Below, in pieces: positions 1,913 to 63,983 of a stretch of DNA of 64,000 nt. Numbering within the stretch: the stretch's first letter is position 1; each line of letters begins with the position of its first letter. The notes below the pieces were generated by a model. It saw nothing but the letters and a program-made list of their open reading frames with translations. It was not told the origin of the DNA and made no database searches. This DNA is from Variovorax sp. WDL1 (GTDB lineage: Bacteria > Pseudomonadota > Gammaproteobacteria > Burkholderiales > Burkholderiaceae_C), in the NCBI RefSeq assembly GCF_001541225.1, contig NZ_LMTS01000288.1, forward strand, positions 1 to 64,000. The letters are read 5' to 3'. A program made the translations under genes and the position numbers.

Positions 1913-2119
1913 TCAACCCCGCGGCGCCTCGACCGCCACACTGCTCTGCTCGTCCTGCATACGCTCTTCGATGCTATCCCGCAGGCGGTCGAAATCTGGA
2001 CTGTTGGGCGAATCCAGCTCACATGCTTCGATGTACGCCAGATCGCTAATTTCGTCGGCGCTGAGCATTCGAGCGGCCACCACCGTCAGCGGTTTGGATT
2101 GGGCTTGGATCGAGGACAT
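1913..2119 (-). CDS. small unknown protein ending in -PRG
   Basis: A 68-residue acidic, helical protein (about residues 20-55 are rich in Asp, Glu and Leu). The first ATG is at 2119; a TTG at 2158 is also possible. It ends VEAPRG, one member of the set of C-terminal Pro-Arg-Gly proteins in this window. It lies 60 bases downstream of the gene ending at 2183 and is probably the last gene of that operon, closed by the terminator at 1853-1897. I recognise no family. Confidence 0.6.
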   Translation of the reverse strand: MSSIQAQSKPLTVVAARMLSADEISDLAYIEACELDSPNSPDFDRLRDSIEERMQDEQSSVAVEAPRG

Positions 2120-2182
2120 AGTTCTTGTACCGATGGAAGTTGCAATGGCGCCCGGCAATGAGGGTACGGGCGCAGGAGACGA

Positions 2183-3151
2183 TCACCCGGCCGGCGTCGC
2201 CACGGCCTGGCGGTCCAGGTCTTCAACATCGGCGGCGAGCACGCACCCATAGTCGGGATGCATCGTCCATGGGGAAGCATCTAGGAGACGGACTACCTCG
2301 CCGTGGATGGCGTCAAAGTTCGCCGAGCAGTCCTCGCCGCGCGACACAGCCTGGTCTAAAGACTCGGCCATCGACTGCAGCGCCCGGTACACCGGCTGCG
2401 ACATCGCCTCCGGCCGAATGAGTGCCGTGAGGAATTCGGCCTCGCCGAGCTCGTGTGCGCCGAAGAGCGCCAGCCGCTCGGCAACCATCGCGGTGAGCGG
2501 GCCAGCGGTGTGGCGCAGTCTCATGAGCTTGAAGTTCTCGTAGGTGTCCTTGCGCGCCCCGCGGTCGAATGCGGTGGCGATGGCGTTCGCGATGGCCCCC
2601 ACGTTGGTGCGAAGCCCGATCGGCTTTCCGGCGCGCTTGCCTTCAAGCTCCAGCTCAATGCCGGTGGCGCCCACCTTGGTGACGACCATCCCCGTATTGC
2701 GCTTGCCATCGTTGAAGATCAGCGCGCCAACCTTGTCGCCGGGCTGGAATGCGAGAGCCTGCGCCGTGGCCACCAGCTTACGGTGGTGCCGCATCGCCTC
2801 GACGGCACTGCGGGCGAAGTAGACGTCGTAGGCAAAATCGCCGCCATCCACGCGCTCGGTGTTGCGCGCCAGCTGCTCCTTCGTCACGCCGAGATCCTTC
2901 GCAATGGCCGCGTTCACCTCGATGTTGTAGAAGCGACCCGCATCGAGCGCCCGCTCGGCGGCCTCCATCACCAGTCGCTGGCGCGGCGTCGGGTCAAATG
3001 CTGGGGACTTGCAGAGGCGCCAATGGTCGTAGCAGGTGCCGACGGCGGGAAGTTCATATCGAGCCACTGTTGCTCCGTGATCAACACGGCGGAAATCGCC
3101 GTCCGCGGAGATTCTCGAACGGCTCGGCAGAACCTTCTCAAATGTTTTCAC
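2183..3151 (-). CDS. unknown protein, 322 aa
   Basis: The GTG start at 3151 directly follows the TGA of the upstream gene (TGAGTG), so translation is probably coupled. The protein is soluble, with no signal peptide. A central segment (about residues 135-175) looks like a small beta-barrel: a PGDKVGALIFNDG stretch followed by alternating short strands, as in SH3-like domains. The flanks are helical. It ends ATPAG, a near relative of the -PRG tails. No family recognised. Confidence 0.75.
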   Translation of the reverse strand: MKTFEKVLPSRSRISADGDFRRVDHGATVARYELPAVGTCYDHWRLCKSPAFDPTPRQRLVMEAAERALDAGRFYNIEVNAAIAKDLGVTKEQLARNTERVDGGDFAYDVYFARSAVEAMRHHRKLVATAQALAFQPGDKVGALIFNDGKRNTGMVVTKVGATGIELELEGKRAGKPIGLRTNVGAIANAIATAFDRGARKDTYENFKLMRLRHTAGPLTAMVAERLALFGAHELGEAEFLTALIRPEAMSQPVYRALQSMAESLDQAVSRGEDCSANFDAIHGEVVRLLDASPWTMHPDYGCVLAADVEDLDRQAVATPAG

Positions 3152-4141: not shown

Positions 4142-4287
4142 CACGATCTCCTTGGCCAAAGGGCGTGACGATCCCGCTTCGCCACGCCAGACAAAAGAGA
4201 TTTGTCGACGAAGCCAAACCATCCAACAACCGACGCCGGTACGGCTTCGCCATGCGGGAGGCGCGATCTCGGGAAACCGCTGGATTT

Positions 4288-6962: not shown

Positions 6963-7376
6963 TCAGCAGCGCGGCAGCTCTGCGGTTTCCGGCTCGTCTT
7001 CCGGCTCGATTGGCATGGGCCGCTGGATCTCGCTGAAGCCGAACTTGTCGACGACGAAGGTGGTCCCATCGCGCATGACCAGGTCGCCGACGGACGTGCT
7101 TCGACGTGAAGCGGTTGTCTTGACCTGCACACCGGGGTTCCCGGACCAGTCACTGTCGATGTGGTTCGTCGCGGAGAAGGCACGCTCTAGGTTGTCGCCC
7201 TCCACTTCCGCAACCAGCTCGAACGACAGGCCGACCTCGCGCCATTTCACCTCCTCGCTGAAGATCTCTGCCAGCGCATCGCGATCGACGCGGAACGCGA
7301 TGCGCGCGTGCATGTCGACGACTGCGGGGTTCAGCTGGCCTGCCCTGGCCACCTTCAGATGGAATACTTGCATCAT
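6963..7376 (-). CDS. conserved mobile-element protein with TNHID / RSTSVGD motifs
   Basis: A 137-residue protein. TNHID around residue 70, W-x-x-N just after it, then RSTSVGDLV and a closing GFSEI strand match a small family I have seen in phages and plasmids and whose function I do not know. The fold is probably a beta-rich single domain. The C-terminus ELPRC resembles the PRC tail of the next upstream gene. ATG at 7376. Confidence 0.75.
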   Translation of the reverse strand: MMQVFHLKVARAGQLNPAVVDMHARIAFRVDRDALAEIFSEEVKWREVGLSFELVAEVEGDNLERAFSATNHIDSDWSGNPGVQVKTTASRRSTSVGDLVMRDGTTFVVDKFGFSEIQRPMPIEPEDEPETAELPRC

Positions 7377-7394: not shown

Positions 7395-8408
7395 TCAGCA
7401 GCGTGGCGCTGGGGCAGCTTCGATATCTGCCTGCGCGAAATGGCGCGCAAAGGGGCTCTCGATGCCTTGGCGATCGAGGCGCAGATGAATCGACTTGAGC
7501 ATTCGCCCGGCCGCGAGTGGCGATCGTTCGATGGCGCCTTCGATGGCCACGACGGCCGACTCGCTTGCGAATGCTCTCAGCAAGCCGATCTCGAAGTCCT
7601 CGTCCATGTTGTCGAAGAGATCGTGCGGATGGGCGGCCAGGATCAAGTCGCAGAGGTCCTCGTCTGACTCATTGCCCGTCAGCTCGAAACGACCCTCGTC
7701 CAGGGTCTCCTCGATCACCGAGCGTTGTTCGACGTCGAACACCACGAGCCTGTCCGCGCGGTTCGCTTCTACGGCAGCGCGGAGCATGTCCCGCATGCGC
7801 TCGGCGTCGCTGGAGCATTTCGCCGGCGCGCTTCCAGCCATGGCGCCAACTGCTGCGTCAAAGACACGGCTCAAGAGTGCCTCCCGCTCTGCCGCGCGGT
7901 CGACCGCATGGTTGCCCGCATCGGCAAACGAGATCCAGCGCCCGTGCTCTGCCGGGCCCCCCGCGAAAAGATCCGCCTTGGCGATTGTGTGGTGGTAGAG
8001 CGCAGCCTTCGCGGGCTCGAGCGTAAAAGGCGCCGACTCCCGGGGATCCGACACGTACCCCTTGCCTACGACCTCACGGATGCGCAGATGCCAAATCGAT
8101 CCGTTCACCGGCCAACGGCGTGCCGCGGCGACCTCCGCGGCGTAGGCGATCGCGTCCTCCTTGGTCGGCAGGTCGGCGATGCATACCACGCCGCCGCCCT
8201 CCTCGCGAAGATAGACGGAGCACATCTTGAGCGGCCCGTCCTCAGGCGAGAACACCAGGCGGGTGCAGTACACCTTGCCACCATGGTCCTTCTCGATGGC
8301 GATCGCCTCGACCTCGACGCCCTTGAATCCCTTCGCAGGGATGTCGGCAATGGTTGGGTACAGGGTCCACGGCGTGACGGGGACTTCGGCAATGATGGGT
8401 GCGGGCAC
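7395..8408 (-). CDS. unknown protein, 337 aa, ending -APRC
   Basis: The GTG start at 8408 has AAGGAG six bases upstream. The N-terminal 110 residues are beta-rich; a central helical part includes KCSSDAERMRDMLRAA and an acidic region rich in Glu and Asp follows. There is no signal peptide or membrane segment. The tail APAPRC differs from the -PRG tails by the last residue only. Unknown function; probably cotranscribed with the genes on either side. Confidence 0.75.
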   Translation of the reverse strand: MPAPIIAEVPVTPWTLYPTIADIPAKGFKGVEVEAIAIEKDHGGKVYCTRLVFSPEDGPLKMCSVYLREEGGGVVCIADLPTKEDAIAYAAEVAAARRWPVNGSIWHLRIREVVGKGYVSDPRESAPFTLEPAKAALYHHTIAKADLFAGGPAEHGRWISFADAGNHAVDRAAEREALLSRVFDAAVGAMAGSAPAKCSSDAERMRDMLRAAVEANRADRLVVFDVEQRSVIEETLDEGRFELTGNESDEDLCDLILAAHPHDLFDNMDEDFEIGLLRAFASESAVVAIEGAIERSPLAAGRMLKSIHLRLDRQGIESPFARHFAQADIEAAPAPRC

Positions 8409-8437: not shown

Positions 8438-8902
8438 TCAGCCGCGCGGTGTGGCTTGCTCGACTCGACTATTCGTCCAGTCTGCGATCCGGCCGTGAAT
8501 GCTCTCTGCGAGATCCGGCGGACTCAACAGGCCGACGCGACGCACGATCTCCTTCGGATCAGTGGTGCCGACGTCGGGGGTGTAGTTGTAGGGCGACCAT
8601 TCGCCGAGAAAGGTGCCGTCAGGCCCGATCACGCTCAGCAGCAGGCCGCAAGCCGGCTCGCACGACAATCTGGTGAGAGCACGTTCATCTCCGTCAGTCA
8701 GGAGCATCTCCACGTGCACAGCTCCGTCCAGGTCAGCGTAGTGGACCGAGAAGCCGATGCCTCGTTCCACGTCGTGTTCGATCTCGACGACGCGCCCGCA
8801 ACGCAGGCCCCTCGCTTTCAGCTGGGCGTTGAGAGCTTCCATCGCGCTCTCGATGGCCGGCTTGGCCGCATCCTCGAAGGTCTTGTAGTGGTCGTTGGTC
8901 AT
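8438..8902 (-). CDS. unknown protein ending -PRG, 154 aa
   Basis: The start at 8902 is uncertain: no clear ribosome site is visible, and the frame stays open to 9076. Residues 20-45 (LNAQLKARGLRCGRVV) and a later LLLSVIGPDGTFL resemble the repeated domain found in the 14-19 kb operon. The C-terminus is EQATPRG. It is the first gene of the block running down to 4361 and diverges from the zinc-finger gene at 9128. Confidence 0.65.
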   Translation of the reverse strand: MTNDHYKTFEDAAKPAIESAMEALNAQLKARGLRCGRVVEIEHDVERGIGFSVHYADLDGAVHVEMLLTDGDERALTRLSCEPACGLLLSVIGPDGTFLGEWSPYNYTPDVGTTDPKEIVRRVGLLSPPDLAESIHGRIADWTNSRVEQATPRG

Positions 8903-13616: not shown

Positions 13617-14050
13617 GCACTGCGGGGCCGGCCGGCGGCCAGCGCCTTCAGTGGCTGACGGTGCACTTCACCTGCACGACGGCATAGCCACACATGCCGC
13701 CGGCCGAAACCGAGGTCTCCTTGGACGTGTACGTGTCGCAGGTTCTCTTGCGTGACCTGGTCGCGCTGCGGGTTCGCTGGGTTGAACGCCGAGTCGTCGA
13801 AGGCGACGGACAGCGCCTGCGCGCGCGTCAGGCCATGCCGCTTCGCCCAAGGATCGAGTGCGCTGGAGATCCACATCTCGCGCGAGGCGGCCTCGTGTCG
13901 CACCGCACGGGCTGCCGACTCCTCCAGATCCAGGCCTTCCTCGAAGTCCCGGACCGCGCTGTGCGCGCGGGGGTTCGTCCGGCCGATGCCAGATTGCTCC
14001 AGGCGCAGGCGAAGCTGCTCCACCTCTTGAGGGGTTCGAACGATGCTCAT
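13565..14050 (-). CDS. unknown helical protein; 3' end uncertain
   Basis: The ATG at 14050 overlaps the upstream stop by four bases (ATGA). Residues 1-110 look real: helical, charged, with MSIVRTPQEVEQLRLRLEQ and coding-type third positions. The last 35-40 codons are Arg-rich and run 52 bases into the convergent lipoprotein gene. Another frame over the same bases ends in SAGGMCGYAVVQVKCTVSH, which looks more protein-like, so a frameshift near 13720 is possible. Last gene of the 19260-13565 operon. Confidence 0.5.
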   Translation of the reverse strand: MSIVRTPQEVEQLRLRLEQSGIGRTNPRAHSAVRDFEEGLDLEESAARAVRHEAASREMWISSALDPWAKRHGLTRAQALSVAFDDSAFNPANPQRDQVTQENLRHVHVQGDLGFGRRHVWLCRRAGEVHRQPLKALAAGRPRSAYSEVRLNATRLKTATR

Positions 14051-14493
14051 GCGCGGGGCCTCTCGGCTTTTCCATCCATCTCGGACTCCGCGGCTGGGAC
14101 GCACCTGGGCTGATCGTTTCCCACGTCCCACTCGATCAAGCCGGAATCGAGATGCAGTTCGCGCAACATGGCCTGCCCGATAGCCATCAGCGGGCCCGGA
14201 TAGAGCCCGATGCATTGATTCCCAGCGGGTAAAAATTGCGAGATCCGTGTGAGTTCGCCGGCTTCTGCATCGAACTTCACTGTGGCCACGTTCGCGGCGA
14301 GGAGTTCCTCGCGCAACTCCGCGCGAGTCCTGGTCGGGCCGAACGGATGTGAAACGGCTGATGCCACCGTCGGGTGCCGGGTCCTGCCGGCGCGGACCTT
14401 CGGAACAGGTGCGAAAGGGGCTGCGATGGTGGCTACAGGGCGAGCAGGCGCCGGCGCGGGCGCTGCGTCGAAGAGGTCGAAGTTTGCTTGCAT
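14047..14493 (-). CDS. small protein with GV-VRF-type domain, ends -ERPRA
   Basis: 148 residues; ATG at 14493, ten bases after the upstream stop. The N-terminus (MQANFDLFD) leads into an Ala/Pro linker to about residue 50. A domain starting LREELLAANVATVKF resembles segments of the proteins encoded at 15259 and 18166. The tail ERPRA is one residue away from the ERPRG of two operon neighbours. Unknown function. Confidence 0.65.
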   Translation of the reverse strand: MQANFDLFDAAPAPAPARPVATIAAPFAPVPKVRAGRTRHPTVASAVSHPFGPTRTRAELREELLAANVATVKFDAEAGELTRISQFLPAGNQCIGLYPGPLMAIGQAMLRELHLDSGLIEWDVGNDQPRCVPAAESEMDGKAERPRA

Positions 14494-14503: not shown

Positions 14504-15262
14504 TCAGCCCCGAGGGCCAGCCTCCACTTCCGCCGCGGATTCCTGCGCGACAGTGAGCTCAACTACTTCCCATTGTGCGAGCGGGTCCGTTGTCAGGCCC
14601 CAGGGTCCGTTCGCGAAGAAGGCGGTGGCATCGTCGAGTTCCCCCCACCCGTCGCGCTCGCTCCAGTACTGGGAGCCCTCGGGAGACTGGGCCACCTTCG
14701 CCACGAACGGGCCACCTGTGATGCTGGGCATCAGATCCTGCGCTTCACGCAGCCACTCGCCGAAGCTGTCGACCAGGTCGCCGCCATTCACGTCGCCGTT
14801 TCCTGCGTGGAGCGGCCGGTTGCTCCGGAAGAGCTCCTTGAGGACGCGGGCGCCAGGGTCAGACTTTGGTGCGGGCATGCTTCCGACGGTAGCCTTGTGC
14901 TTGCGCAGCCAGCCCCCGAGCTCGTCCACCAGGTCGCCGCCGCTGATCTCGCGGTCCTCGAACTGGAAGTCGCTGAACGTCTCGAACAAGTTCACGAGCA
15001 GCGCGGTCGACGTGGGGGTATCGGCGCTCAGCACCGTGTAGCCGGTATCGCGGGCCCATGTCTCTGCTTCCGCCCGGCTGAGCCAATGGTGCTCGAGCCG
15101 CTCGCCGGCGCGGTGGCCGCTTTCGATCTGAAGGCAGACGCGCGGCGTCTTGCCGTAGGGCTTGCCGGGCACGGCCTTGACGTCGACGGGCATGGGTTCT
15201 CCGGTTGAAGGGGGTTGCTTCGAGGCGCTTCGGTTGCGGGCGGTCATGCCAGGAGCAGTCAT
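14504..15262 (-). CDS. unknown protein with duplicated GGDLVD motif, ends -PRG
   Basis: 252 residues; ATG at 15262 overlaps the upstream stop (ATGA). It contains an internal duplication: SGGDLVDELGGWLRKHK near residue 107 and NGGDLVDSFGEWLREAQ near residue 157. These two helical repeats flank an unrelated loop. The C-terminal 70 residues are aromatic-rich (YWSERDGWGELDD). No signal peptide. The protein ends VEAGPRG. Unknown family. Confidence 0.75.
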   Translation of the reverse strand: MTAPGMTARNRSASKQPPSTGEPMPVDVKAVPGKPYGKTPRVCLQIESGHRAGERLEHHWLSRAEAETWARDTGYTVLSADTPTSTALLVNLFETFSDFQFEDREISGGDLVDELGGWLRKHKATVGSMPAPKSDPGARVLKELFRSNRPLHAGNGDVNGGDLVDSFGEWLREAQDLMPSITGGPFVAKVAQSPEGSQYWSERDGWGELDDATAFFANGPWGLTTDPLAQWEVVELTVAQESAAEVEAGPRG

Positions 15263-16184: not shown

Positions 16185-17168
16185 TCAGCCCCTCGGGCGC
16201 TCCATTTCAGGTTCAGTTTCGTCGGGTTCGACGCGGAGGTAACCGACGCCGAACTCCGACACCAGTTCAGCCCCGCGCTCAGCGAGGTATGCCTTCAGAG
16301 CAAGCTCGACACGCCCAATGGCCTCGCGATCCGCACTCTCGACGTGCACCAGGCGCTGGGCGCCTTCGCTCGCCTTGAAGCTCACTTCGAGGCCTTCCGA
16401 CAGTGCGACGTTCTGCAGGCCCATGGCGATGTCGCGCACGTGCACCTCCGCCACCCTCTCGGGCTCGGGGCTGCGGAAGGTGAGTTCCAGGAACGGCAGC
16501 TCGCTCGGGAACAGGCCGCGGAACTCGAAGGGTCGCTCCCGGCGCATGCTTTCCTGCACCGGCCTGTCGTCATAGACCTTCACGATCGAATGCCGAATCT
16601 TCGTTCTGCGCTCGCCGGGGTTCTCGCCCCGAGCGCGATCGCAGAAGATCTCGGCGTCCTTCGCGGCCTCGTTGCGCACGTCGACGGCGCCGGTGCCTGG
16701 CGGCATACGGACGGTGCTCACGCATTCTTTGCCGTACCAGAGCCAGTAGGTGGTCAAGCCGGGGCCGCGCTGCGCCGCCGGCACGTAGTCGGGCACCTCG
16801 GCGAGACCGCCAGGTTGTGCTGAATTCGGTGTCGCCGCCTGTTCACTCGCAACAGCCATCAGCGTCGGAGCCTGTGCGGGGGCAACGGGTGCAGCAGCCG
16901 GGACAGCGATAGGGCCGATGCGATCCGCCCGCTTCCTGAACTCGTAGATGTCGCCGCGAAGCCCTTGCGTGAACTCGCTCACAGTTTCCTGTGCGTGCGA
17001 CAGCGACGCTTCGAGATCCTCTTCGGTCTCCTCGCCTTCGTCGATCCGCATTTGGATCAGATCGCGCGCGTTGGCGGCCTCGATCAATCTTTCCGCGCCT
17101 TTCGCGAGGTAGTGCGCGAACTCGACAGCCTTGTTGAGCTGAGCGATCTGGGGTGCGAGATCAGCCAC
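16185..17168 (-). CDS. unknown protein ending -ERPRG, 327 aa
   Basis: The start is the GTG at 17168, which sits inside the last codons of the upstream gene (GTGGCTGA: GTG is the start, TGA is the upstream stop), giving tight coupling. Residues 1-75 are helical and probably coiled coil. An Ala/Pro linker at about 90-135 follows, then an alpha/beta domain with LTTYWLWYGKECVSTVRMP near residue 145. It ends EPEMERPRG, using AGG for the arginine. Confidence 0.7.
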   Translation of the reverse strand: MADLAPQIAQLNKAVEFAHYLAKGAERLIEAANARDLIQMRIDEGEETEEDLEASLSHAQETVSEFTQGLRGDIYEFRKRADRIGPIAVPAAAPVAPAQAPTLMAVASEQAATPNSAQPGGLAEVPDYVPAAQRGPGLTTYWLWYGKECVSTVRMPPGTGAVDVRNEAAKDAEIFCDRARGENPGERRTKIRHSIVKVYDDRPVQESMRRERPFEFRGLFPSELPFLELTFRSPEPERVAEVHVRDIAMGLQNVALSEGLEVSFKASEGAQRLVHVESADREAIGRVELALKAYLAERGAELVSEFGVGYLRVEPDETEPEMERPRG

Positions 17169-17730
17169 GGGCCGACTCCTTCGTGCCTGCTTCCTCGGTG
17201 AGGGCCTCGGCGATTGCGGACTGAAAGGGGTTGGGCATGCCACGCCGGGTCAGTTCGGCGCTGAGGCTCCCCAGCAGGCCAAGGTCCGGGTTCCCGGGAT
17301 CGAAAGTTCCTCGCAGCACCATGTCGACGGCCTGAGGGCTCGAAAGCCCCTCCAGGATATTCACGCTCAAGGCGCCGGCGCCGCTCACGGGCGATTCAAG
17401 GCCAGCGGCGAGGATGTCTTCGTAGGTCAGCTCCAGTGCCGCCTCGATTACATGCTCATCGCTGGCGTACGCCAGGCCATGATGGCCATTCAGGACGATG
17501 TCTACGAAGTCGTCCGCCTGGCGCCGGTCCGCTGCTATGGCGCAGATCAGCGCGTCGCGCACCTGTCCGGAAAGGAATCGGGGGTTGTCATCCTTGCCAT
17601 CTTCCAGCAGAACGGCGATCTGGATCTGAAGGTGTCCGTAGCGAGGCGAACCAGGCTCCGGCGCGGACTTGCCCAGCGCTGCGAGGGTTGCTGCGAGCAC
17701 GCTGTCGCGCGCGCTATCGTTGTTGCTCAT
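17161..17730 (-). CDS. unknown protein ending -SARG, 189 aa
   Basis: ATG at 17730; the longer upstream frame is Arg-rich and discarded. The protein is helical with paired Asp residues (RRQADDFVDIVLNGHHG) and resembles a small all-alpha repeat protein. It ends KESARG, a variant of the -PRG tail. Stop and next start overlap by eight bases (GTGGCTGA). No family recognised. Confidence 0.7.
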   Translation of the reverse strand: MSNNDSARDSVLAATLAALGKSAPEPGSPRYGHLQIQIAVLLEDGKDDNPRFLSGQVRDALICAIAADRRQADDFVDIVLNGHHGLAYASDEHVIEAALELTYEDILAAGLESPVSGAGALSVNILEGLSSPQAVDMVLRGTFDPGNPDLGLLGSLSAELTRRGMPNPFQSAIAEALTEEAGTKESARG

Positions 17731-17744: not shown

Positions 17745-18173
17745 TCACGCGTACATGCGCGGGCGCTCGGCCTCGGGCTCGGATTGATCTTCTGCGGGGC
17801 TTGTTGCCCGTCCTGCGAGTTCGCGGAGGTCCTCGCCCATCACCAGGTCGTGCTCGCTGCCGGGATAGTTGCGACTCGCGATCGTCACGTCGCCGTCCAA
17901 GAGCCATTCCAGGACTCCAGCAGAGCGCTGCCATAGTTCGGCACCGCCCGGGTTCGCAGAGAGCTGGGACGCCGCGATGTGACGCAGGTTGTCAGCTTCC
18001 GGCGGGGTGACATCCCGAACAGGATTGCCGGCCGCGTCGAGAAGCTCGGCGCAAATGAATTCGCCCCTGTAGCGGTACTTCACCATGGCCACGCCGTCGT
18101 GCTTCAGCAAGAGCCGCATGCCGGTTCGCTGGCCCTTCAGGGAGGGCTCGATCTCTTGCCAGGTCTTAGCCAC
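17745..18173 (-). CDS. unknown protein with GV-VKY-type domain, 142 aa
   Basis: The GTG at 18173 overlaps the upstream stop in the same way as at 17168 (GTGGCTAA). An ATG at 18119 is the alternative. Residues 18-55 (LLLKHDGVAMVKY, then AELLDAAGNPV) belong to the domain shared with the products at 14047, 15259 and 18166. The C-terminus is AERPRMYA, as if an ERPR-G tail had been changed and extended by a few codons. Confidence 0.65.
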   Translation of the reverse strand: MAKTWQEIEPSLKGQRTGMRLLLKHDGVAMVKYRYRGEFICAELLDAAGNPVRDVTPPEADNLRHIAASQLSANPGGAELWQRSAGVLEWLLDGDVTIASRNYPGSEHDLVMGEDLRELAGRATSPAEDQSEPEAERPRMYA

Positions 18174-19260
18174 GGGGACGCTCCCCGTCGAACTCGGTTT
18201 CAGGCTCAAGTAGCCCAGGCGCAATACACCGGTGGTATTCGTCGACCCACAGGCTGTGCCGTGCGAAGTCGTCGTCGTGGTTGAGAAGCTCCCCAGACTC
18301 CGAGACGAACAGGGTCTCACGCGCGGGCCGAGCGTCGACCCATTGCAGAAAGAGGCGAAGCGGCACTCTGGCGCTGGTCATCGGCCAAAAATCTTCGTTG
18401 GCTCCGCAGAGTTGTACGGTCTCGCCGAAGTCGCGCACAACGAGCTTCGGTTCGTTGAAATGAACCGATGGGTCCTTTCCATCAGCAGCACCGCCGGCAC
18501 GAACGGGCAATGAGGGAGTGCCCAGCGGCAGTCCGCGCCCCTCGCGCAGCTGGCCGATCGCGGTGCTGTTCAGAGTCAGTTCGGCCCAGCGCGGCATCGC
18601 CCGGCCGAGAGCTGGTTGCAGCTCCATCACGACGACGCGCTCTTCCCGCCAGCCGTCGCCGAGTTCCGGCAGCAGGTGCCGATCGAGCGCATCGGAAGCG
18701 TTGCGCCAGCGCAGCGGCTGGATGTTTCGATCGATGCCCTCGATCCGGACGGAGTGCGTCAGGACATCACGGCCAACGTCCCAGTCGATCGTTGAAACCC
18801 AAGCCGGCTCCACGGCCTGAGGCGGCATCGCCTTCAGCAGTTCCCGGTCGAGTCGCCTGCCAAGGCGTTTCAGATTTCCCGTGTCGATGTCACTATTGCC
18901 CGCTCGGAGCTCTTCGCCAGAGGCGTCAAAGACCTTCAGCGCCGAGACTTCGGGATCCCCGCCGCTACCGTCGCGGGTGACTTCGATACGGACACGGTGG
19001 ATACCGCTTTCGTCCAACAGGTACGCCCGCAGTTGCGCCACCTCGACAAAGTCCTCTCCTGCTTGCAGCACATTGACCGTTTCCGCTGCGGCCATGAGCT
19101 GGTTGCGTTGCTCGGAGGACATCAGGGACCAGGCCGCGCGCAAAACATCTTGTAGGTCGCCGACTTCGTGATCGGGATCGTCGTTCTGGCCGTGCTGCTC
19201 GGCAGCGTCGAGGATGCGCTCGATGCGCGGGTCATGGGGTTCGGAGGTCGTCGTGGTCAT
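18166..19260 (-). CDS. unknown protein ending -ERPRG, 364 aa
   Basis: ATG at 19260; first gene of the eight-gene minus-strand operon. Residues 1-60 are acidic and helical. Residues 70-130 (LRAYLLDESGIHRVRI, then LKVFDASGEEL) carry the shared domain. IDWDVGRD near 165 matches the 15259 product. The C-terminal half is an unassigned alpha/beta region (VHFNEPKLVVRDFGETVQL). The tail is FDGERPRG. The promoter must lie in 19261-19402, back to back with that of the helicase. Confidence 0.75.
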   Translation of the reverse strand: MTTTTSEPHDPRIERILDAAEQHGQNDDPDHEVGDLQDVLRAAWSLMSSEQRNQLMAAAETVNVLQAGEDFVEVAQLRAYLLDESGIHRVRIEVTRDGSGGDPEVSALKVFDASGEELRAGNSDIDTGNLKRLGRRLDRELLKAMPPQAVEPAWVSTIDWDVGRDVLTHSVRIEGIDRNIQPLRWRNASDALDRHLLPELGDGWREERVVVMELQPALGRAMPRWAELTLNSTAIGQLREGRGLPLGTPSLPVRAGGAADGKDPSVHFNEPKLVVRDFGETVQLCGANEDFWPMTSARVPLRLFLQWVDARPARETLFVSESGELLNHDDDFARHSLWVDEYHRCIAPGLLEPETEFDGERPRG

Positions 19261-19402: not shown

Positions 19403-22400
19403 ATGGCGATGACGTCAGCAAGCGTGCCCACCGACGCGGAAACCGCACCAGCCCGGGCGCCGGCCCCGGCGCCTGCCGTTCTGCGCTTCGCACCGTTTCG
19501 TCGGCTCACGCGCGCCACCGCCTCCGCGCCGGCTCCGGGTGCGGCTCCGGTACCCGCTTCGGCCCGCGCGGCAGTTCCAGCGCCGGCGACGGCCGTTGCG
19601 TCTGCCGCCCGACCGCTGGGGCTTCGGTTCCCTGGCGCGGCTGGTACACCCGCAGGGCCCTCCGTCGCCCATGCCCCGGTCCCGCCCGTTCCTGCCCCAG
19701 CTTCCGTCCCTGCAGTTGCCACAGCACCATCGGCCGCCGCGGCACCTACCCCTTTCCGATTCCGCTCCTTCTCGGTCGGCCGCGCGCCAGCCGTGGCCGC
19801 GGCCACCGCACTTGCTCCGGCTCCCGCCCCGGAAGCGCTCGCTCCGACGGCGGCACCGGCTCAAGTCCCAGCCTCAGCCCCGGCACAGGCGCCTGCGCCC
19901 GCGCCCGCGCCTGCGCCTGCGCCTGCGCCTGCGCCTGCGCCTGCTCAGGAAGAACTGGAAGATCTGACCCCACCTCCTCCCGCCGCTCCCGTGCCGAAGG
20001 GACTCGGTTTCGGCTTCAAGGCGGTCGCGGGGGAGTCCGCCCTTCCGCTTGGCTTCGGCGGTATGGCCAAGCCTTCCCCCGACGAGACCCACGTGGGCAT
20101 CGTCAAGAGCGTCGCCATCTACGGCGACTGGGCGGTCGGCTCCATGGACACACAGGAGCGCGAATCCCTGAAGATCACCGGCTCGGCCGTGGCGCACCTG
20201 AAGGAAGGTCTCGAGTACGCCCTGACCGGTCGCATGAAGGTTCATCCCAGCCACGGCGTGCAGCTCGATGTCGTGAGCTTCGAGCCGCACATCCAGCCCG
20301 ACGTGCCCTCCATGGCGCGCTTCATCGCCGCAAATTTCACCGGCATTGGCAAGAAGCTCGCCGAGAAGTACCTCACGAAGGTCAAGGACGAAGGCGGCGA
20401 CGAAGGCCTTGAGGCCCTGCGCCTGAAGCTCGTCAACGAGCCCTGGACCGTCACTTTCGAATCGGTTTCCAACCGGAAGACGAGCTTCGGGGACAAGAAC
20501 GCGCCTCCTGCCGATTCGGACAACCCCGCCACGCTCGCCGACTCTCCCGAGATCCCCTACATCGAACGCATGCTCGCCACCAAGTTCGGCGCGCTGCGGG
20601 AGCTGAAGGCCGCCGCAATGAAGCTCCTGGCGATGACGCTTTGCTCGCAGGCGAAGGCGCTCAAGGACGAAACCCGGCCGATTACCGAGGTCGCCACGGC
20701 GCTCCTCGCAAAGGATCCGTACAGCCCCATGCGCACGATCCCGGGCTACGGCTTCCGCAGCGCCGATGCGATCGGCAAGGCGTTGAACATCCCCCGCGAC
20801 GCTCCGGTGCGCCTGACCGCCCTCGCCTCTTTCCTCGTGATGGAGGAATGCGACTCGGCCGGCCACGTCTTCGTGGGCGAGCCGCAGCTGCGCAACCGCC
20901 TGGCAAAGACCGAGCCGATGATCTCGCTGGAGACGCTGATCGAGTACGCCACCGAGAGCGGCAACCTGCGCATCGAGGAAGACGAGCGAGGCAATCGCCG
21001 GATCTACCCGGCCAAGCTCTACGAGGCCGAGGTCCGCCTGGCCGAGGACCTGCACGGCATGCTCGTGTCGGCCAAGCCCCTGCTGCGCAGGCGCACCTAC
21101 GAGCAGTTCCGCACGAAGGCAATCGAGGTGAGCCAGCGCCTGCTCGGCTACGAGCTCGACGAGGACCAGATGAAGGCCCTCTACGGCATCGCCACCAGCG
21201 AATCGCGCCTGCACGTCGTCACAGCCGGTCCCGGCTGCGGCAAGACCGCGATCATGGAAGTCTTCAGCGCCATGATGTCCCACAAGGACTGGGCGTTCGC
21301 CGCTCCGACAGGCAAGGCCGCCAAGGTCCTGTCCGCGCGCGTCGAGCGGAACGGCTATTCGGCCTCAACTCTGCACTCGCTGCTGAAGGGCAGCCCCGAG
21401 GGCGGGTTCATGGTCAACCGGAACAGCCCCCTCGGCTGCCAGATCCTCGTGGTCGACGAAGGCACGATGCCGACCCTGTCCCTCTTCGAAGCGGCTACCG
21501 CTGCCCTGCGGCCGGATGCGCACCTGATCATTCTGGGAGACCCTGGTGTCGACGGACTGGCAGGCCAGCTGCCTTCCATCGGCGCCGGCCGCGTGCTCAG
21601 CGACATCATCCGCCTGCCCGGCGTGGACCACCACCACCTGACCGCCACGAAGCGCAACTCCGGGGCGATTCTGGAGACAGTGAACCAGATCCGCCAGTAC
21701 TCGCTCGCCTGCGAGGATGGTCCGGGCGTCGCGTTCTCCCACAGCTTGCCGTCGGCAGAGAGCTACTTCGAGACCGTCGCCGGCAAGTACGTCGAGCGCG
21801 CGCAGGCCAACGGCATCGAGAACGTGGTGCTGCTCATGTCGCGTCGCAACGGCGCGGCAGACGAGCCGTCCTGGTGCACCGACTATGCGAATGCCCGTCT
21901 GCGCGACCTGCTGAATCCGCACGCCATCAAGATCCCCGGCACCGCCTCCCTGCATGTGAACGACCGGATCGTGATCCGAGACAACATGACGCTCGGCGAG
22001 GACGAGGAAGGGATGGACATCCGAGTGGTCAACGGCGATACCGGAACGATCATCCGCTTCCAGCCCCACAACGATCCGAAGCACCGCGGCCCGCAGTACG
22101 TGGTCATCAAGCTCGACGACGGACGCTTCATCCAGTTTCCGGGCGACTCGCTCAAGGATCTGCAGCACAGCTACGCAGCGACCGTGCACATGGCCCAGGG
22201 CAGCGAATACAAGGACGTGATGCTGGTCATGACGCCCGGCCAGGCATCCTTCATGAACGCGAACATGTTCCTGACGGGCGCCAGCCGCGCGCGCGAAGGC
22301 CTCTGGATCTACGGCGACGACGCCGAGCTGCGCAAGATCGCCGCGACGAAGCTTCCCGCCCGGAACACGACGCTGGTGGAGCGCGTCAACGTGAACCTGC

Positions 22401-22459
22401 CCGAGACGCTGAGCAACATCGAGGACGCCGGCTCCGAAGAGGATCGGCCGAAGGGCTGA
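19403..22459 (+). CDS. RecD2-like SF1B DNA helicase with disordered N-terminal arm
   Basis: 1018 residues. Residues 1-210 are Ala/Pro-rich and disordered, with scattered GF or RF motifs (PKGLGFGF at about 197). From about 300 the RecD2 layout appears: hairpin TGIGKKLAEKYL, then IPGYGFRSADAIGKAL near 445, Walker A PGCGKTA near 611, Walker B VVDEGTM near 683, and ATVHMAQGSEYKDV near 925. SF1B helicases unwind DNA 5' to 3' in repair or conjugation. The tail DRPKG is a lysine variant of -PRG. The GNAT gene follows directly. Confidence 0.9.
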   Translation: MAMTSASVPTDAETAPARAPAPAPAVLRFAPFRRLTRATASAPAPGAAPVPASARAAVPAPATAVASAARPLGLRFPGAAGTPAGPSVAHAPVPPVPAPASVPAVATAPSAAAAPTPFRFRSFSVGRAPAVAAATALAPAPAPEALAPTAAPAQVPASAPAQAPAPAPAPAPAPAPAPAPAQEELEDLTPPPPAAPVPKGLGFGFKAVAGESALPLGFGGMAKPSPDETHVGIVKSVAIYGDWAVGSMDTQERESLKITGSAVAHLKEGLEYALTGRMKVHPSHGVQLDVVSFEPHIQPDVPSMARFIAANFTGIGKKLAEKYLTKVKDEGGDEGLEALRLKLVNEPWTVTFESVSNRKTSFGDKNAPPADSDNPATLADSPEIPYIERMLATKFGALRELKAAAMKLLAMTLCSQAKALKDETRPITEVATALLAKDPYSPMRTIPGYGFRSADAIGKALNIPRDAPVRLTALASFLVMEECDSAGHVFVGEPQLRNRLAKTEPMISLETLIEYATESGNLRIEEDERGNRRIYPAKLYEAEVRLAEDLHGMLVSAKPLLRRRTYEQFRTKAIEVSQRLLGYELDEDQMKALYGIATSESRLHVVTAGPGCGKTAIMEVFSAMMSHKDWAFAAPTGKAAKVLSARVERNGYSASTLHSLLKGSPEGGFMVNRNSPLGCQILVVDEGTMPTLSLFEAATAALRPDAHLIILGDPGVDGLAGQLPSIGAGRVLSDIIRLPGVDHHHLTATKRNSGAILETVNQIRQYSLACEDGPGVAFSHSLPSAESYFETVAGKYVERAQANGIENVVLLMSRRNGAADEPSWCTDYANARLRDLLNPHAIKIPGTASLHVNDRIVIRDNMTLGEDEEGMDIRVVNGDTGTIIRFQPHNDPKHRGPQYVVIKLDDGRFIQFPGDSLKDLQHSYAATVHMAQGSEYKDVMLVMTPGQASFMNANMFLTGASRAREGLWIYGDDAELRKIAATKLPARNTTLVERVNVNLPETLSNIEDAGSEEDRPKG
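19889..19945 (+). repeat. tandem hexamer tract coding for Pro-Ala
   Basis: About nine near-identical copies of GCGCCT or GCGCCC inside the helicase gene encode alternating Pro and Ala in the disordered arm. The copy number probably varies by slippage; each six-base step keeps the frame. Confidence 0.85.
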
Positions 22460-26933: not shown

Positions 26934-27149
26934 CTACCCGCGGGGCGCGTCAGCTTTAGGAGCCTGTGCTCCACCCGCCATCAGCACGTCCTTCAGAGAC
27001 GGCTTGGCCCGGGCGGGCGCGATTACCTGACACAGCGCCTTCTGCCAGGTCATGTCCGTGCCATGGAACTCCACGGCCTCAGGCGCATCGAGCATGAGTT
27101 CGAGGGCGATGCGTTCTTGGTCGGTGAAGCGTTGGGCGGTAGCGGTCAT
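26934..27149 (-). CDS. 71-aa protein made of the protease N-domain and tail, ends -PRG
   Basis: ATG at 27149. Residues 7-35 (RFTDQERIALELMLDAP, VEFHGTD, then W) match the N-terminal module of the two metalloproteases at 27211 and 28718. Residues 47-55 (SLKDVLMAG) match the LKDVLLSG near the end of the 28718 product. The protease domain and the hydrophobic segment between them are missing. It ends KADAPRG. Either a deletion derivative or an independent small partner of the proteases. Confidence 0.65.
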   Translation of the reverse strand: MTATAQRFTDQERIALELMLDAPEAVEFHGTDMTWQKALCQVIAPARAKPSLKDVLMAGGAQAPKADAPRG

Positions 27150-34966: not shown

Positions 34967-35287
34967 TTAGCCTCGCGGAGCGTTGCCGGTGTCGGCTTCG
35001 TGCGCAGCCTGGGGTGCCTGGCGCAGGACCGGCACTTGGGCTCGCCACTCGGCGCTGGCTTCGAGGAGATCAGCGCGCGCGGGCGCGCTGCCGGCCGAGT
35101 AGACGGCCAGGACGCTCTTGACCTTCTCGACGGTGACGCCGACGCCCACCGCGATGCGATCGAGGAGCTTGTTGAGCTGGGCGGCCCGTTCCGGCGATGG
35201 AGCGATGCCGTTCATCGTCATCGCCACGCCTCCCAAAAGTGCTGTCATCTGATGTTCCCTACCTTGTTGCGAGAAATTGAAGTTCAT
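34967..35287 (-). CDS. small unknown protein ending -NAPRG, 106 aa
   Basis: ATG at 35287; first gene of the 35287-30170 operon. Helical and cytosolic, with GIAPSPERAAQLNKLLDRIA near residue 27. It ends DTGNAPRG, with CGA for the arginine. No family recognised. Upstream (35288-35350) are 63 bases before the topoisomerase stop. Confidence 0.65.
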   Translation of the reverse strand: MNFNFSQQGREHQMTALLGGVAMTMNGIAPSPERAAQLNKLLDRIAVGVGVTVEKVKSVLAVYSAGSAPARADLLEASAEWRAQVPVLRQAPQAAHEADTGNAPRG

Positions 35288-55691: not shown

Positions 55692-56087
55692 CTACCCGCC
55701 GCCCGGACGGTCGCGCTCATCAGCCTCCTCGGCAGACGGGCTGATGAACGGCATCTCCTCGATCTCACCGGCGACCAGGCGCTTGTAGAAGATGCCTGCA
55801 TAGGACATGGCGCCGACGCACTTGTTCACCTCATCGATCGGAAATCGCCCGGTGACCACGACCAAGTTGTCGGCCCATTCCCCGCAGCCGCCCTCGCGCA
55901 GTTTCCTGCTGGTATCGGCGTACCAGGCGGCGACGCGCTCCGGCGCCCCGTGCTTATGCAGGGTGCCTTCGGCTGTGTCGATCGCCAGGGAGATCTGATC
56001 CAACGGCCGAAGCACTGGCTCCAGGTCGTCGCTCAAAGGCCGCTTGGCATGCAGCACGTACTGGCCGCAGTTGAGCCGGTACTCCAA
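55692..56087 (-). CDS. unknown protein, 131 aa, C-terminus RPGGG
   Basis: TTG at 56087, two bases after the upstream stop; the frame is coding-like. Helical, with SLAIDTAEGTLHKHGAPERV near 33 and an acidic tail ending ERDRPGGG, a loose relative of the -PRG tails. Last gene of the operon that begins at 63983. No family recognised. Confidence 0.65.
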   Translation of the reverse strand: MEYRLNCGQYVLHAKRPLSDDLEPVLRPLDQISLAIDTAEGTLHKHGAPERVAAWYADTSRKLREGGCGEWADNLVVVTGRFPIDEVNKCVGAMSYAGIFYKRLVAGEIEEMPFISPSAEEADERDRPGGG

Positions 56088-56089: not shown

Positions 56090-56941
56090 TCAGCCTCGCG
56101 GGGCGGGTTGTTCGTTCTCCTCCTGCGCAGCAGAGATGGCGGCTTCGACGGCCTGGAAGGCAGCCTCGGGCCCGACGCGTGCGACCAGGTACTGGATCTG
56201 CGTGTCGACGCCGTCGTTGTTCACGTCCGAGGCCTTCATCGAGATCAGGTCCATGTCCTCCTCACGCGGCCGAGTCGAGACGCTCCGCGCGGCAGCGAAG
56301 TGCACGGCTTCGTCGAGCGTCTCCGCATCGAGCTGCGCGTCCTTCATCATCCTGGTCAGGAAGCCCGAGATCTCGTCGTTGCTCACGTAAGTCCAGCACT
56401 CGATGTAAGCACCCTGGGGCGGCAGGTCGGGATCGTCTCGCGAGATGTTCACCTTCGCATTCGCATCGACCTCGAGCTCGCCTTCCTTCTGCCCCGCCAT
56501 GGCGTACTCCCGGAAGACGCTGCGCTCGACCGCAGTCGCAGGCACCGGCCGCTTCATCGAGACAAACCCGCTGACCGCAACTTTCTTCAGCGTGAACGCC
56601 TCGATGTCTTCGTAGTAGCTGGAATGCGGCTCCTCCCCAGCTGCCAGCCGGCGAGAGAAGCTCTCCTGGAACTCCTTCGCCCATTGCGCATACTGCTCAT
56701 AGCGCCCGCGCGAGTCGCCGGCGGGAACCAGCTGCTCGCGCGCGATGGTCTCGGCGATATCGATCAGCGGCTCGACGAGCACCGCGGGCATGCTGTCCTT
56801 GGGAGACGCGGCCGCGAGTCCCTTCGCGAAGGCCTTTTGCACCACCGCGCGCCATTCGGCGACGGAAGGGGCGGAGCCGGACAGAGATGCCAGGAGCTCG
56901 TCGCACTCGGCGGGAGACAGTTCGATTGCTTGAAGGGTCAT
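56090..56941 (-). CDS. unknown protein ending -PAPRG, 283 aa
   Basis: ATG at 56941; the longer frame upstream is Arg/Pro-rich and discarded. The N-terminal 60 residues are helical (LSPAECDELLASL), followed by a mixed alpha/beta region with SRGRYEQYAQWAKEFQESF near 93. It ends ENEQPAPRG. Cytosolic. It lies 58 bases downstream of the Strawberry-notch gene and may act with it; no family recognised. Confidence 0.72.
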   Translation of the reverse strand: MTLQAIELSPAECDELLASLSGSAPSVAEWRAVVQKAFAKGLAAASPKDSMPAVLVEPLIDIAETIAREQLVPAGDSRGRYEQYAQWAKEFQESFSRRLAAGEEPHSSYYEDIEAFTLKKVAVSGFVSMKRPVPATAVERSVFREYAMAGQKEGELEVDANAKVNISRDDPDLPPQGAYIECWTYVSNDEISGFLTRMMKDAQLDAETLDEAVHFAAARSVSTRPREEDMDLISMKASDVNNDGVDTQIQYLVARVGPEAAFQAVEAAISAAQEENEQPAPRG

Positions 56942-62900: not shown

Positions 62901-63056
62901 ATGGAAGCCGAGCTGCTGGATTGCCTTGTTCCAGGCGGGATTGAGGTAGGACAGGCCCGTGACGAACAGGTGCAGATGGGGATCGCCGCCCACCTCGATC
63001 GTTGCAATCTTCAGACGCGCACCAGACGCATCGTTCAGGTCAATCCACTTTGGCAT
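57000..63056 (-). CDS. Strawberry-notch-type helicase polyprotein, 2018 aa
   Basis: N-terminal third (1-480): an unassigned beta-rich start and a methyltransferase-like fold around 340-400 (DAMFINADPVLGADG in the place of an NPPY-type loop, then an SLKEGGRAVIVLA strand). Then an SF2 helicase of the Strawberry-notch class: LADETGIGKGRQLAAMM near 583, IIFDEAHVA near 708, SATWSKTEDNL near 740, and SAATGASMHASPQF and IQLIGRVNRYDQ in the second lobe near 1230-1270. The acidic insert near 980-1080 and the Ala/Glu-rich end are disordered. Large proteins of this sort occur on plasmids and phages; ATP-driven nucleic-acid remodelling is likely. Confidence 0.88.
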   Translation of the reverse strand: MPKWIDLNDASGARLKIATIEVGGDPHLHLFVTGLSYLNPAWNKAIQQLGFHAGGARKYLVRRVKAGERPKPSDFRPVFPNAAVREMAPESYMLNLQTARKPDERPASKEERAAAIDINNAVLLGRNSDGERVFEAAGSRYVVKVTGQGAELRVDESESSQPHVFLRLPKDATDEFRTLSMVQCADGFVRSMVLGEVQHTEDMDRFLQALHGTVSADQPVSFTTEQHDEVHAAIETALLRYLRDGFEVAQDAYGESARLTDMLPPYRGRLRGTGTMPAPISVASQRLLGDTEGLTVVVPNAFDGASFAFLPEGTNVRAYRGTKDMSALSSVVNLRASTEWQDGEFSPGREVGADAMFINADPVLGADGRRTDYMLAINSLRSLKEGGRAVIVLAADAVPGELSVASRNFLQMVNERYQIQSAFETAPILSRKAGVPDNNPGLRVVSVVNRRVDLPTPITTLPVISSWDDLKTTVDEAMARAEVLDAQAQGVDVERAALEGRVQRPYIAFSRVGEARTMVPSNMQAPLQATMTRIESLYGQIDELVTRELGWGENALAKRLSPEQVDGIAMMVVRQLEGYASILADETGIGKGRQLAAMMAWALRRNQPVFFVTDKANLFSDLARDLKAIGEWDRVRPMVMNTDGEITWEPGPGEPPLVLAQGFASARTKAMVDGGMKLEEAGLNTCFLTYSQIAGAESDKAQWVKNQLGNALIIFDEAHVAAGSDSQIASHIAEMARLAKGVQYASATWSKTEDNLHIYQRALPDSVNVASLAAAIKKGGESFSEVLSSMLASEGALIRREHDLSKLDVSVYTVEERRAHNERVSDAVAEALGAATYLAGDMSQIFMRGNREAVSVLRKAKEARAAMVDQTNAAAETPVARANIMSSSFGTGSVLYQVMKAVQGALNADQVADRAIEHIRAGLKPVIVSEATNEALTRMLMLEADVQAEANGAAPRTAGGLPSAIKMPTIRDAVRAVLMPRLTTVVQREITEEDVPDEPEEAPALADAAARAAAELNAEGEDAEEGAQTAPTAEMVAAQREARILRNLQRQTEGEQAAAEEDAVSLDEALAAAAPADTAPGEGGEAGERGKKVISGRRTVSILDLPDMTDADRQHFRDGVAELERLINAIPELPVSAFDVIEQKLRDAGITVGEITGRSFSLERMPASAAEPADGQAAGNPVSTATVPTTDRLDGAPMWKVTPRLRSKRAVNAVKRAFNNGEIQALLINRSAATGASMHASPQFLDRSRRVLLEHQIPENVTDRIQLIGRVNRYDQVTFPLVETCTTGIYGELRYVMMQNRKLEKMSANVRSSRENAMLIKDVPDLFNSIGLEAVRSYVQDEPLVAKKLALPENFLEITGVAAVNMFLMRLPLLKVAEQRQVYDQLFNRFDESFNRHELLGTNPLKTREFDWRAKEEFSGVFFGDTSGERENMVEALINEALTTAEAGEPATDAAPAPTGDTTMDVSALAAGGQPDGAASDQDDLLSAFDRPVYIKKIAYNVDLKPMSWTACVAAATVSGELLAAEGGHFELDENGKASWKQDVVAKLNSGMQAIVKMAAVAAGLTDTNEAVLTNPPAQRAHLRADWLKNHVAGLVPGGIFQEDAKVDSNGVVYQQAKTGVIVNMKLPTEVRELILPHKWKIAVVFPGEERPVEYSLRALLSEVRGDVKKGEVAGTLMTNAYSRLRPVNYQRGTEQGWRFANVLGEANPRISWTRDEFDLAPVGQHRRSGYVLGGNMYMAYDWSVKSRVGRSIIYTDDKGMRQRGVLLPATMSHVGAQFMPMRVWGGQIKPFVKKLVEAQGVNGLQLETEFLSSNKPYGIMINDKGLMLLTKARDARRALRLMRGEQVKMRKEALGERATAARDPLNVTLGVLSRNGRLGTGRAAAGLNGRVALGDEATAGSATGIPQGYVAVKLGFDPTKPAMLDRALSLLVHGTGLEIYAKGMQQRALAKEVGREYFAQIREETAQRRAQVRQQIAAAAAGAPVVPHLEQEAPAEEGAEAEVPAANDESNAERAAA

Positions 63057-63218
63057 CGCGCCCTACTCTCAGAAAAAGGTGCGCACCCACTGGGCTGCCC
63101 GGGAATCGGGGCCCAGGGGTGCGGCTGGTTCAGGGATGACTCAAGGAGAAACCGGATTCGTTCGGAATCCGAAGGTCACTGGCGGTCCCGTCAATCCGCC
63201 AGCTTCCTTCCCGGCTTC

Positions 63219-63983
63219 TCAGCCGCGGGGAGCAGCAGCAGCGGCCGCTTCGTTCAGGTCGATGCCGTCGTTTTGCTGTTCGTGGTCGTCGGGGGCCTGG
63301 CTGGACGTATGCGCTTGCGCGTCCTTGTCCTTGTAGTAGCTCTCCAGGCCAGCGGCGGTCCACACGGCGATGTTGTTGATCTCTTCCCAGTCCAGGCGGT
63401 CCTGGCCCTGGAAGCGCACGGTCTTCGCCTTGGGCAGGCCGGCGGGCTTGCCTTCACCGTCCACGAGGATCTGGCCGTCCTCACCGGCATAGATCGGGGC
63501 GAACTTCATGTTGTTCGCCGCGCCTTCAGGCTTCACGCTGATGAACGAGCGATCACGGTCGAACGGCTCGCCGTTGCCGATGCGGTCGCCGGCGCGAACG
63601 TGGCTCACGTAGATGTCGACCGGGCCGTCGCCGTGCGACAGGGCGTTCGCAGCCAGCAGGCCGATCACGGTGCGGCCGAGTTGCTGGTCCAGGCGGATCT
63701 TCACGCTCTCGCCATCGGTCAGGCGCACAGTGGCGATCGGGTACACGACGGCGGGCTGGCCCACCGGCTCGTACTTGTCGGTGCCCACCTTCACGCTCAC
63801 GACGCTACCCGACAACTGGCGGGCCAGCTCGTGTTGGCCTTGCGGGTTCTTGTAGAGGAAGCCGGGAACCTTCAGTTCCGGATTCTTCTCCACCTCGGCC
63901 GCCGACAGGTGCTTGTTGGTCCGCTCGACCAGCGAGATGAAGGTGAGGGATTGGCGGTTGGTGTTTGCCTTGACGATAGCCAT
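63219..63983 (-). CDS. unknown protein ending -AAPRG, 254 aa
   Basis: ATG at 63983 after AGGAG. Residues 1-215 are alpha/beta with few cysteines: ELARQLSGSVVSVKVG near 53 and LTDGESVKIRLDQQLGRTVI near 88, then a lysine-rich part. An acidic Ala-rich tail ends AAAAPRG. No signal peptide. First visible gene of the operon with the Strawberry-notch helicase; an accessory DNA-binding factor is possible but unproven. Confidence 0.7.
   Translation of the reverse strand: MAIVKANTNRQSLTFISLVERTNKHLSAAEVEKNPELKVPGFLYKNPQGQHELARQLSGSVVSVKVGTDKYEPVGQPAVVYPIATVRLTDGESVKIRLDQQLGRTVIGLLAANALSHGDGPVDIYVSHVRAGDRIGNGEPFDRDRSFISVKPEGAANNMKFAPIYAGEDGQILVDGEGKPAGLPKAKTVRFQGQDRLDWEEINNIAVWTAAGLESYYKDKDAQAHTSSQAPDDHEQQNDGIDLNEAAAAAAPRG

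Follow-up and report, generated by a model that had tools for sequence, protein, structure and literature searches.

An acidic C-terminal tail ending in Pro-Arg-Gly on unrelated proteins of a Variovorax megaplasmid family: a candidate signal for conjugative export

A 64,000-nucleotide stretch of Variovorax sp. WDL1, the window of this study (G000:C230:1-64000), encodes many unrelated proteins that share one C-terminal end: Pro-Arg-Gly (PRG) preceded by an acidic linker. It is part of WDL1 plasmid 3, and similar ends occur on related megaplasmids. This tag exists at the protein level, on proteins without transmembrane (TM)-like segments and on plasmids encoding the coupling apparatus of a Dot/Icm-like conjugation system. 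By analogy with known type IVB systems, we propose, with confidence about evenly balanced, that the Dot/Icm-like conjugation machine encoded by the plasmid itself (type IVB, MPF_I) reads acidic linker and PRG tip together as a C-terminal signal for export.

The window, with a GC content of 65%, comes from a draft assembly (351 contigs, 8,144,960 bases). One of its genes (27211-28707) is 100% identical to plasmid 3 of Variovorax sp. WDL1 (NZ_LR594691.1, 565,873 bp), a record which also contains a 100-base slice of the reverse-complemented window; coordinates convert as window position = 81114 - record position. Comparison was made with plasmid 3 of Variovorax sp. RA8 (NZ_LR594664.1, 425,299 bp), with which gene order is mostly shared in the first 50 kb, and with contig G473:C139 of Burkholderiaceae bacterium FW106-02_bin.3 (a family-level relative, 235 kb), contigs G016:C29 and G065:C8 and a stretch of G045. 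The element is rare: 5 of 101 genomes of the genus and 2 of 399 in a family sample carry it, the window's own genome included in both. Among viral contigs, 68 stretches had the pattern, none of them a relative. Genes were called with our own script rather than taken from annotation, using a model trained on Variovorax sequences for G473, G016, G045 and G065. Sixteen stretches of the window's own genome (L011-L026), selected for the PRG-TAG pattern, were excluded from all counts, and the tail analysis leaves out Achromobacter insolitus, Bosea and most of pMTS3.

Nine PRG ends had been listed in the first-pass annotation (at 1913, 8438, 14504, 16185, 18166, 26934, 34967, 56090 and 63219), and all were recovered from six-frame open reading frames, each on the minus strand. 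Some of the listed frames begin upstream of the annotated start (8438-8902, not 8438-9076), which leaves the tails unaffected. Nine of the 60 called genes in the window thus end PRG (P ~2e-23 at the plasmid's internal PRG rate). The five called genes within 48.7-55.4 kb, a segment said to be free of the tail, indeed carry none. The claim that PRG exceeds chance also held over the whole of WDL1 plasmid 3, where 22 of 507 genes end this way against 0.11 expected from the internal rate; the stops of all 22 coincide, by eye, with those of annotated coding sequences. RA8 plasmid 3 gave 14 of 397, again against 0.11 expected (from its own internal rate). The runner-up tripeptides in this census were AAR (6) on the WDL1 plasmid and PRA (7) on the RA8 plasmid. 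PRG was found at 13 of 218 ends in G473:C139, 7 of 109 in G016:C29 and 3 of 9 in the G045 stretch; G065:C8 had none among 33, yet its orthologs end PRA, ARG and PRS. No PRG end was seen among 319 genes in seventeen 20-kb stretches from elsewhere in the assembly, on contigs that may or may not be chromosomal; the census places PRG above background on the replicon. Tagged genes are also unevenly distributed: none of 275 between 91.5 and 401.6 kb of WDL1 plasmid 3 versus 22 of 232 elsewhere, and none of 239 in the middle block of RA8 plasmid 3 versus 14 of 158 elsewhere, the block limits having been chosen post hoc with tag positions known. The suggestion of a tag specific to this element stands as regards the protein-level tag and fails as regards specificity, since the tail runs through a Dot/Icm-bearing megaplasmid family.

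Tail properties were examined in WDL1, RA8 and G473 for genes of at least 60 residues, 49 ending PRG and 1066 otherwise. The 49 proteins fall into 30 unrelated BLASTP families, in agreement with the initial view that they are unrelated, and shared ancestry of the tagged proteins was rejected on this count. Their ends are written with four proline, six arginine and four glycine codons and three stops, giving 37 distinct 12-mers, as expected from the claim that the peptide and not the DNA is kept. A compositional or DNA-level artefact, in which GC-rich gene ends or repeated DNA would read PRG by chance, might appeal to the GC content of the window and to the GC-rich codons of all three residues, but it is hardly credible in view of the 12-mer diversity, the minute number of ends predicted from internal PRG, the empty middle blocks and the empty sample of other contigs. 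The 30 bases 3′ to the stop are no more similar among PRG genes (0.261) than among other genes (0.265), which together with the 12-mers ruled out a DNA repeat or terminator lying over the gene ends. The 30 bases 5′ to the tip are somewhat more similar (0.345 versus 0.284), as likeness among the acidic, Ala-rich linkers that they encode would predict. Overlap with the Shine-Dalgarno sequence of a following gene was likewise rejected, because most of the arginine codons (CGC 21, CGG 10 and CGT 3 of 49) followed by GGN give no purine-rich site, unlike CGA or AGG.

The residues preceding the tip were distinctive. Positions -18 to -4 are acidic in 41 of the 49 PRG proteins versus 230 of the 1066 others, and an [ED]xx[ED] motif lies within the 25 residues preceding the tip in 31 versus 281. 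TM-like segments were detected in none of the 49 versus 215 of the others; a sortase- or exosortase-type tail, with its hydrophobic TM-like segment, thus finds no counterpart among them.

Conservation was assessed on reciprocal best pairs carrying PRG on at least one side. Between WDL1 and RA8, 10 of 19 pairs had PRG in both members, 3 had PR followed by another residue and 6 ended otherwise; the corresponding figures were 3, 5 and 8 of 16 for WDL1 and G473, and 3, 2 and 7 of 12 for RA8 and G473. Retention of the tip between orthologs is therefore incomplete: many retain PRG or a near form, while a sizeable part have lost it or never carried it. Identity in tagged WDL1/G473 pairs was 0.31, 0.56 and 0.62 at positions -1, -2 and -3, and 0.00-0.31 across -4 to -18; in 102 untagged pairs it was 0.35, 0.33 and 0.40 at the same three positions, falling to about 0.25. 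Pro-Arg is thus kept better than the linker, and Gly hardly better than in untagged pairs. Glycine is the least retained residue of the tip, with Ala, Cys or Ser in its place. PRG was kept in distant homologs of the window genes at 16185 (36% identity) and 34967 (45%).

The tagged methyltransferase of WDL1 (89980-91479, Pfam MTS) runs about 29 residues beyond homologs of 244 and 253 residues on Cupriavidus and Achromobacter plasmids, which also lack its N-terminal region. Compared with its homolog on WDL1 plasmid 2 (51% identity), a tagged 507-residue Fic protein extends 19 residues further at the C-terminus. For a tagged Fic protein of 539 residues, the homolog on RA8 plasmid 2 (81% identity) also ends PRG; further homologs occur in Shinella (49%), without the tail, and in Niveispirillum (47%), with an unrelated end. 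Judged from such alignments, the tail appears to be an addition on some proteins, whose untagged relatives end where it begins. The tag has also reached a further plasmid as part of a transferred block: RA8 plasmid 2 has two PRG ends among 401, both in about 15 kb (NZ_LR594663.1, 185.7-200.8 kb; L173, L179-L200) corresponding to 394-411 kb of WDL1 plasmid 3, and a second Fic paralog there ends QRG. WDL1 plasmid 2, of which 360 of 816 kb were sampled, gave none in 354. Enrichment, codon diversity, retention between orthologs and untagged homologs that end short together strongly support a protein-level tag under selection.

Among tagged proteins, domains were recognized in a YqaJ/RecE-like exonuclease, a methyltransferase, two Fic proteins and an ATP-dependent ligase-like protein; a tagged AAA ATPase-like protein of G473 matched below Pfam cut-offs, and a metallophosphoesterase carries the variant PRA. 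For most other tagged proteins scanned, Pfam gave nothing at the chosen thresholds, and of ten proteins compared with PHROGs only the YqaJ-like and ligase-like ones matched strongly. The main rival to export, in our view rather improbable, is that the tip acts as a docking peptide binding one cytosolic hub, of plasmid or host origin, which gathers soluble proteins in the producing cell. It would account for an acidic linker and conserved tip on proteins devoid of TM-like segments, several of which (the exonuclease, the ligase-like protein and the methyltransferase) process DNA. Single-stranded DNA-binding protein (SSB) recruits partners through a tail in which, similarly, a conserved tip follows an acidic linker; there, however, one protein is bound by many partners, whereas here many proteins bear one tip. 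Docking fits poorly with the absence of PRG from gyrase A and B, CHC2 primase, DnaB-like helicase and topoisomerase (which in RA8 and G016 ends IRG) and with its presence on Fic proteins, and no hub candidate was found. Should docking be its role, one terminal address shared by so many proteins of a plasmid would still be unusual.

The first-pass annotation had left the role of the tag as sorting, degradation or processing, and the sequence evidence leans to the first, specifically to export. A degradation signal, read by a protease or adaptor and limiting protein lifetime, is quite improbable. Short C-terminal signals of this kind exist, and toxins or recombinases could be kept short-lived in this way, but the charged or small end residues behind an acidic linker differ from the hydrophobic end of ssrA-like degrons. 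The likeness lies in a short C-terminal address; here it is encoded in each gene. The SspB family (PF04386) was found on neither of the two plasmids (other proteases and host adaptors were not searched), and restriction to a plasmid lineage would be unexplained unless the reader were plasmid-borne. Still less probable is processing or conjugation of the terminal glycine by ubiquitin-like or ATP-grasp chemistry. Ubiquitin-like proteins do use a free C-terminal Gly, and an ATP-grasp protein is encoded at 432908-433912; yet ThiF/E1 (PF00899) gave only one sub-threshold match on WDL1 plasmid 3 (10.9 bits, cut-off 28.1) and none on RA8 plasmid 3, and glycine is precisely the residue most often replaced.

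The transfer region of WDL1 plasmid 3 is Dot/Icm-like (MPF_I) and lies entirely outside the window. It comprises DotD/TraH, a conjugative-transfer family protein, an ATPase and IcmT/TraK at 10.9-13.7 kb of NZ_LR594691.1, and DotA/TraY, the coupling ATPase, a thioredoxin-fold protein, DotG, DotH, DotI and type IVb pilus genes at 457-500 kb. A 509-residue protein encoded three genes upstream of the coupling ATPase is a DotM homolog: it matched NCBIfam NF033890 (DotM/IcmP) at 3e-18 with 66 bits, below the 230-bit cut-off, and solved DotM at about 9e-15. Its Arg339 is invariant in three elements and corresponds to residue 314, a conserved arginine among the binding residues of DotM, if the ungapped register, derived by offset, holds; the WDL1 protein has Ile at the paired Arg315, and the other Arg sites fall outside the alignment. 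Coupling ATPase and DotM homolog were present in all six elements followed via the 254-residue window protein described below. With the coupling ATPase as query, RA8 plasmid 2 gave no hit and WDL1 plasmid 2 two weak, partial ones; in favor of export, these plasmids of the same hosts carry PRG ends nowhere in the part sampled (WDL1) or in the imported block alone (RA8). None of the annotated Dot/Icm components of WDL1, RA8 and G473 ends PRG, and a 402-residue protein encoded immediately 3′ to the coupling ATPase gene does so in WDL1 and RA8.

Several features of type IVB signals are found here: a position at the extreme C-terminus of unrelated proteins, a Glu/Asp-rich tail, and an element that itself encodes a coupling ATPase and a DotM homolog. 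In Legionella, DotM binds C-terminal peptides that are acidic and Glu-rich and recruits the effectors that bear them, whose translocation requires patches on DotM; DotM also shows mild homology to TrbA of IncI1 conjugation (PMC5802825). Many Dot/Icm substrates carry an E-block motif (PMC3096851). Conjugation systems also move proteins: an F-type system transfers plasmid SSB, Par and Psi proteins, the recipient SOS response being dampened by transfer of PsiB and SSB (PMC8406263), and the Fic toxin VbhT is transferred to recipients by a conjugative type IV secretion system (T4SS) (PMC5675462). Taken jointly with the tail features, these precedents lead to the export reading. The coupling complex would capture soluble plasmid proteins with the tail, the DotM homolog plausibly binding the acidic part and a putative pocket the tip, and would pass them with the DNA into recipient cells, where recombination, modification and toxin-like proteins could aid plasmid establishment. 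We infer both the reading of the tag by the machine and the export of the proteins. A stronger version, that the tail defines the cargo, with 30 or more unrelated families (recombination enzymes, a methyltransferase and Fic proteins among them) sent to recipients and genes joining the set by gaining a tail, is more tentative and falls a little short of an even chance.

Several observations weigh against export. A 204-residue protein encoded within the dot operon itself carries the PRG end in both Variovorax plasmids but not in G473. The tail is not general to MPF_I plasmids, more distant ones having no PRG ends (none of 121 on pGRT1, 132 on pBN4, 86 in 100 kb of pMTS3, 135 in the first 160 kb of Janthinobacterium pJAB4160 and 173 in three quarters of pA82); three acidic ends on pJAB4160 read PRC, PRS and PRM. 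Related plasmids of A. seleniivolatilans (Achromobacter, 2 of 170) and C. pinatubonensis (Cupriavidus, 3 of 226) were poor in PRG, and one of the three Cupriavidus ends belongs to a DotA homolog, a part of the machine. The isoelectric point of DotM seemed to discriminate tagged from untagged elements (9.5 for three of the former, 7.3-8.5 for four relatives), a suggestion weakened by the value of 9.16 in untagged pBN4. The Pfam relaxase PF03432 was not found on WDL1 or RA8 plasmid 3; MOB-suite reported two MOBP relaxases for the former and none for the latter, and a relaxase search for conserved HxH pairs in 122 core families yielded no tagged candidate. Finally, co-occurrence of the tail and the T4SS is inseparable from common plasmid descent.

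If it is an export signal, the PRG tail resembles known signals in part only. VirB/VirD4 signals are C-terminal, short, arginine-rich and net positive; the tail shares the first two properties and contains arginine, but it is net acidic with a single arginine at -2. Closest are the E-block and DotM signals, acidic Glu-rich C-termini on many unrelated soluble type IVB substrates, and the plasmids here encode a DotM homolog as does Legionella; unlike the E-block as it is described in excerpts of PMC5802825 and PMC3096851, the tail has a near-fixed PRG tip and the machine is a plasmid conjugation system. VbhT is likewise a Fic protein with a C-terminal module on a conjugative plasmid, a case of toxins recruited by an added signal, but there a folded BID domain, also present in the relaxase, serves as the signal (PMC5675462) whereas the tail is short. 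Pfam scans of the two tagged Fic proteins (E up to 0.05) listed Fic, and a weak VbhA for one of them, with no BID-type domain. The F-type plasmid pED208 also delivers plasmid maintenance proteins to recipients through its conjugation machine; its signals are C-terminal or internal and varied, no common terminal motif being reported in excerpts of PMC8406263 and PMC11288057.

C-terminal secretion signals are known; a near-fixed acidic-PRG terminus across about 30 plasmid families would be new, and no description of such a tail was found among the top-ranked open-licence papers on C-terminal motifs, conjugative signals, type IVB systems and megaplasmids. Type IV secretion signals vary between and within systems and are notoriously hard to predict (PMC11288057, PMC5675462). 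Were export confirmed, the protein cargo of a conjugation system could be read from sequence via a near-fixed tripeptide on an acidic tail, and uncharacterised proteins with a possible part in plasmid establishment in new hosts would be flagged.

Achromobacter relatives show R-x-R-G/S or QRG ends (e.g. YARERG) on several proteins (L158:12546-13985, L158:17594-17935, L157:18410-19186, L171:16896-18632 and L171:2760-3542). Arginine at both -4 and -2 was counted in 13 of 339 proteins on Achromobacter plasmids (uncorrected P 8e-8, post hoc), and these endings are possibly a sister form of the tail. Of the five PRG ends counted on the Achromobacter and Cupriavidus relatives, one belongs to a HipA-like protein (Cupriavidus, L141:1433-2797) and one to an AbiEii-like protein (Achromobacter, L154:552-1595).

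Within the window, where near forms listed at first pass (SARG, ERPRA, PRC and RPKG) read as described, tagged and variant genes lie on the minus strand unless stated. A 68-residue protein (1913..2119) with PRG after an acidic linker had no ortholog among the compared elements. Two PRC variants follow: a 137-residue protein (6963..7376), whose G473 homolog has a different end, and a 337-residue protein (7395..8408), whose homologs in RA8 (a 134-residue gene) and G473 end PRG. The PRG protein of 154 residues (8438..8902) has orthologs ending PHC in RA8 and PRA in G473. A 148-residue protein (14047..14493) ends ERPRA, and its neighbor of 229 residues (14504..15193) ends PRG, with PRA in the RA8 ortholog and PRC in the G473 homolog. 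Two ends read ERPRG: a 327-residue protein (16185..17168) retains PRG in the RA8 ortholog and the 36%-identical G473 homolog, and a 364-residue one (18166..19260) has an RA8 ortholog in LRG. Between them, a 189-residue protein (17161..17730) ends SARG, and its RA8 ortholog ARG. The RecD-like helicase (20063..22459, plus strand) ends RPKG, a possible relic or weak variant, and was not counted as tagged. A 71-residue gene with a PRG end (26934..27149) is equivalent to just the C-terminal portion of a 442-residue RA8 protein with the same end, and a small protein (34967..35248; 93 residues as annotated) has PRG in WDL1 and in its RA8, G016 and G473 orthologs. RPGGG on a 131-residue protein (55692..56087), RPTC in RA8, is a possible degenerate form and was not counted.

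PRG on a 283-residue protein (56090..56941) is shared by RA8, G045 and G016, with PRS in G065 and none in G473; on the 254-residue protein (63219..63983) it is shared by the same three, with PRA in G065 and G473. A profile search of the Protein Data Bank (PDB) with the latter gave a best E of 0.7, and its AlphaFold model (mean predicted local distance difference test score, pLDDT, 43) was not used. Its gene sits between those of a YqaJ-like exonuclease and of a 2018-residue protein with an annotated strawberry-notch C-terminal domain (57000-63056), which every relative seen shares and whose end reads ERAAA or a close form instead of PRG. The plasmid also carries nine tRNA genes in an array at 442-1230 (Asn, Ile, His, Leu, Met, Lys, Val, Leu, Arg), and NZ_LR594691.1 has plasmid-borne genes for DNA gyrase A and B, error-prone DNA polymerase, thymidylate synthase and dTMP kinase (L120:22806-27324 and neighbors).

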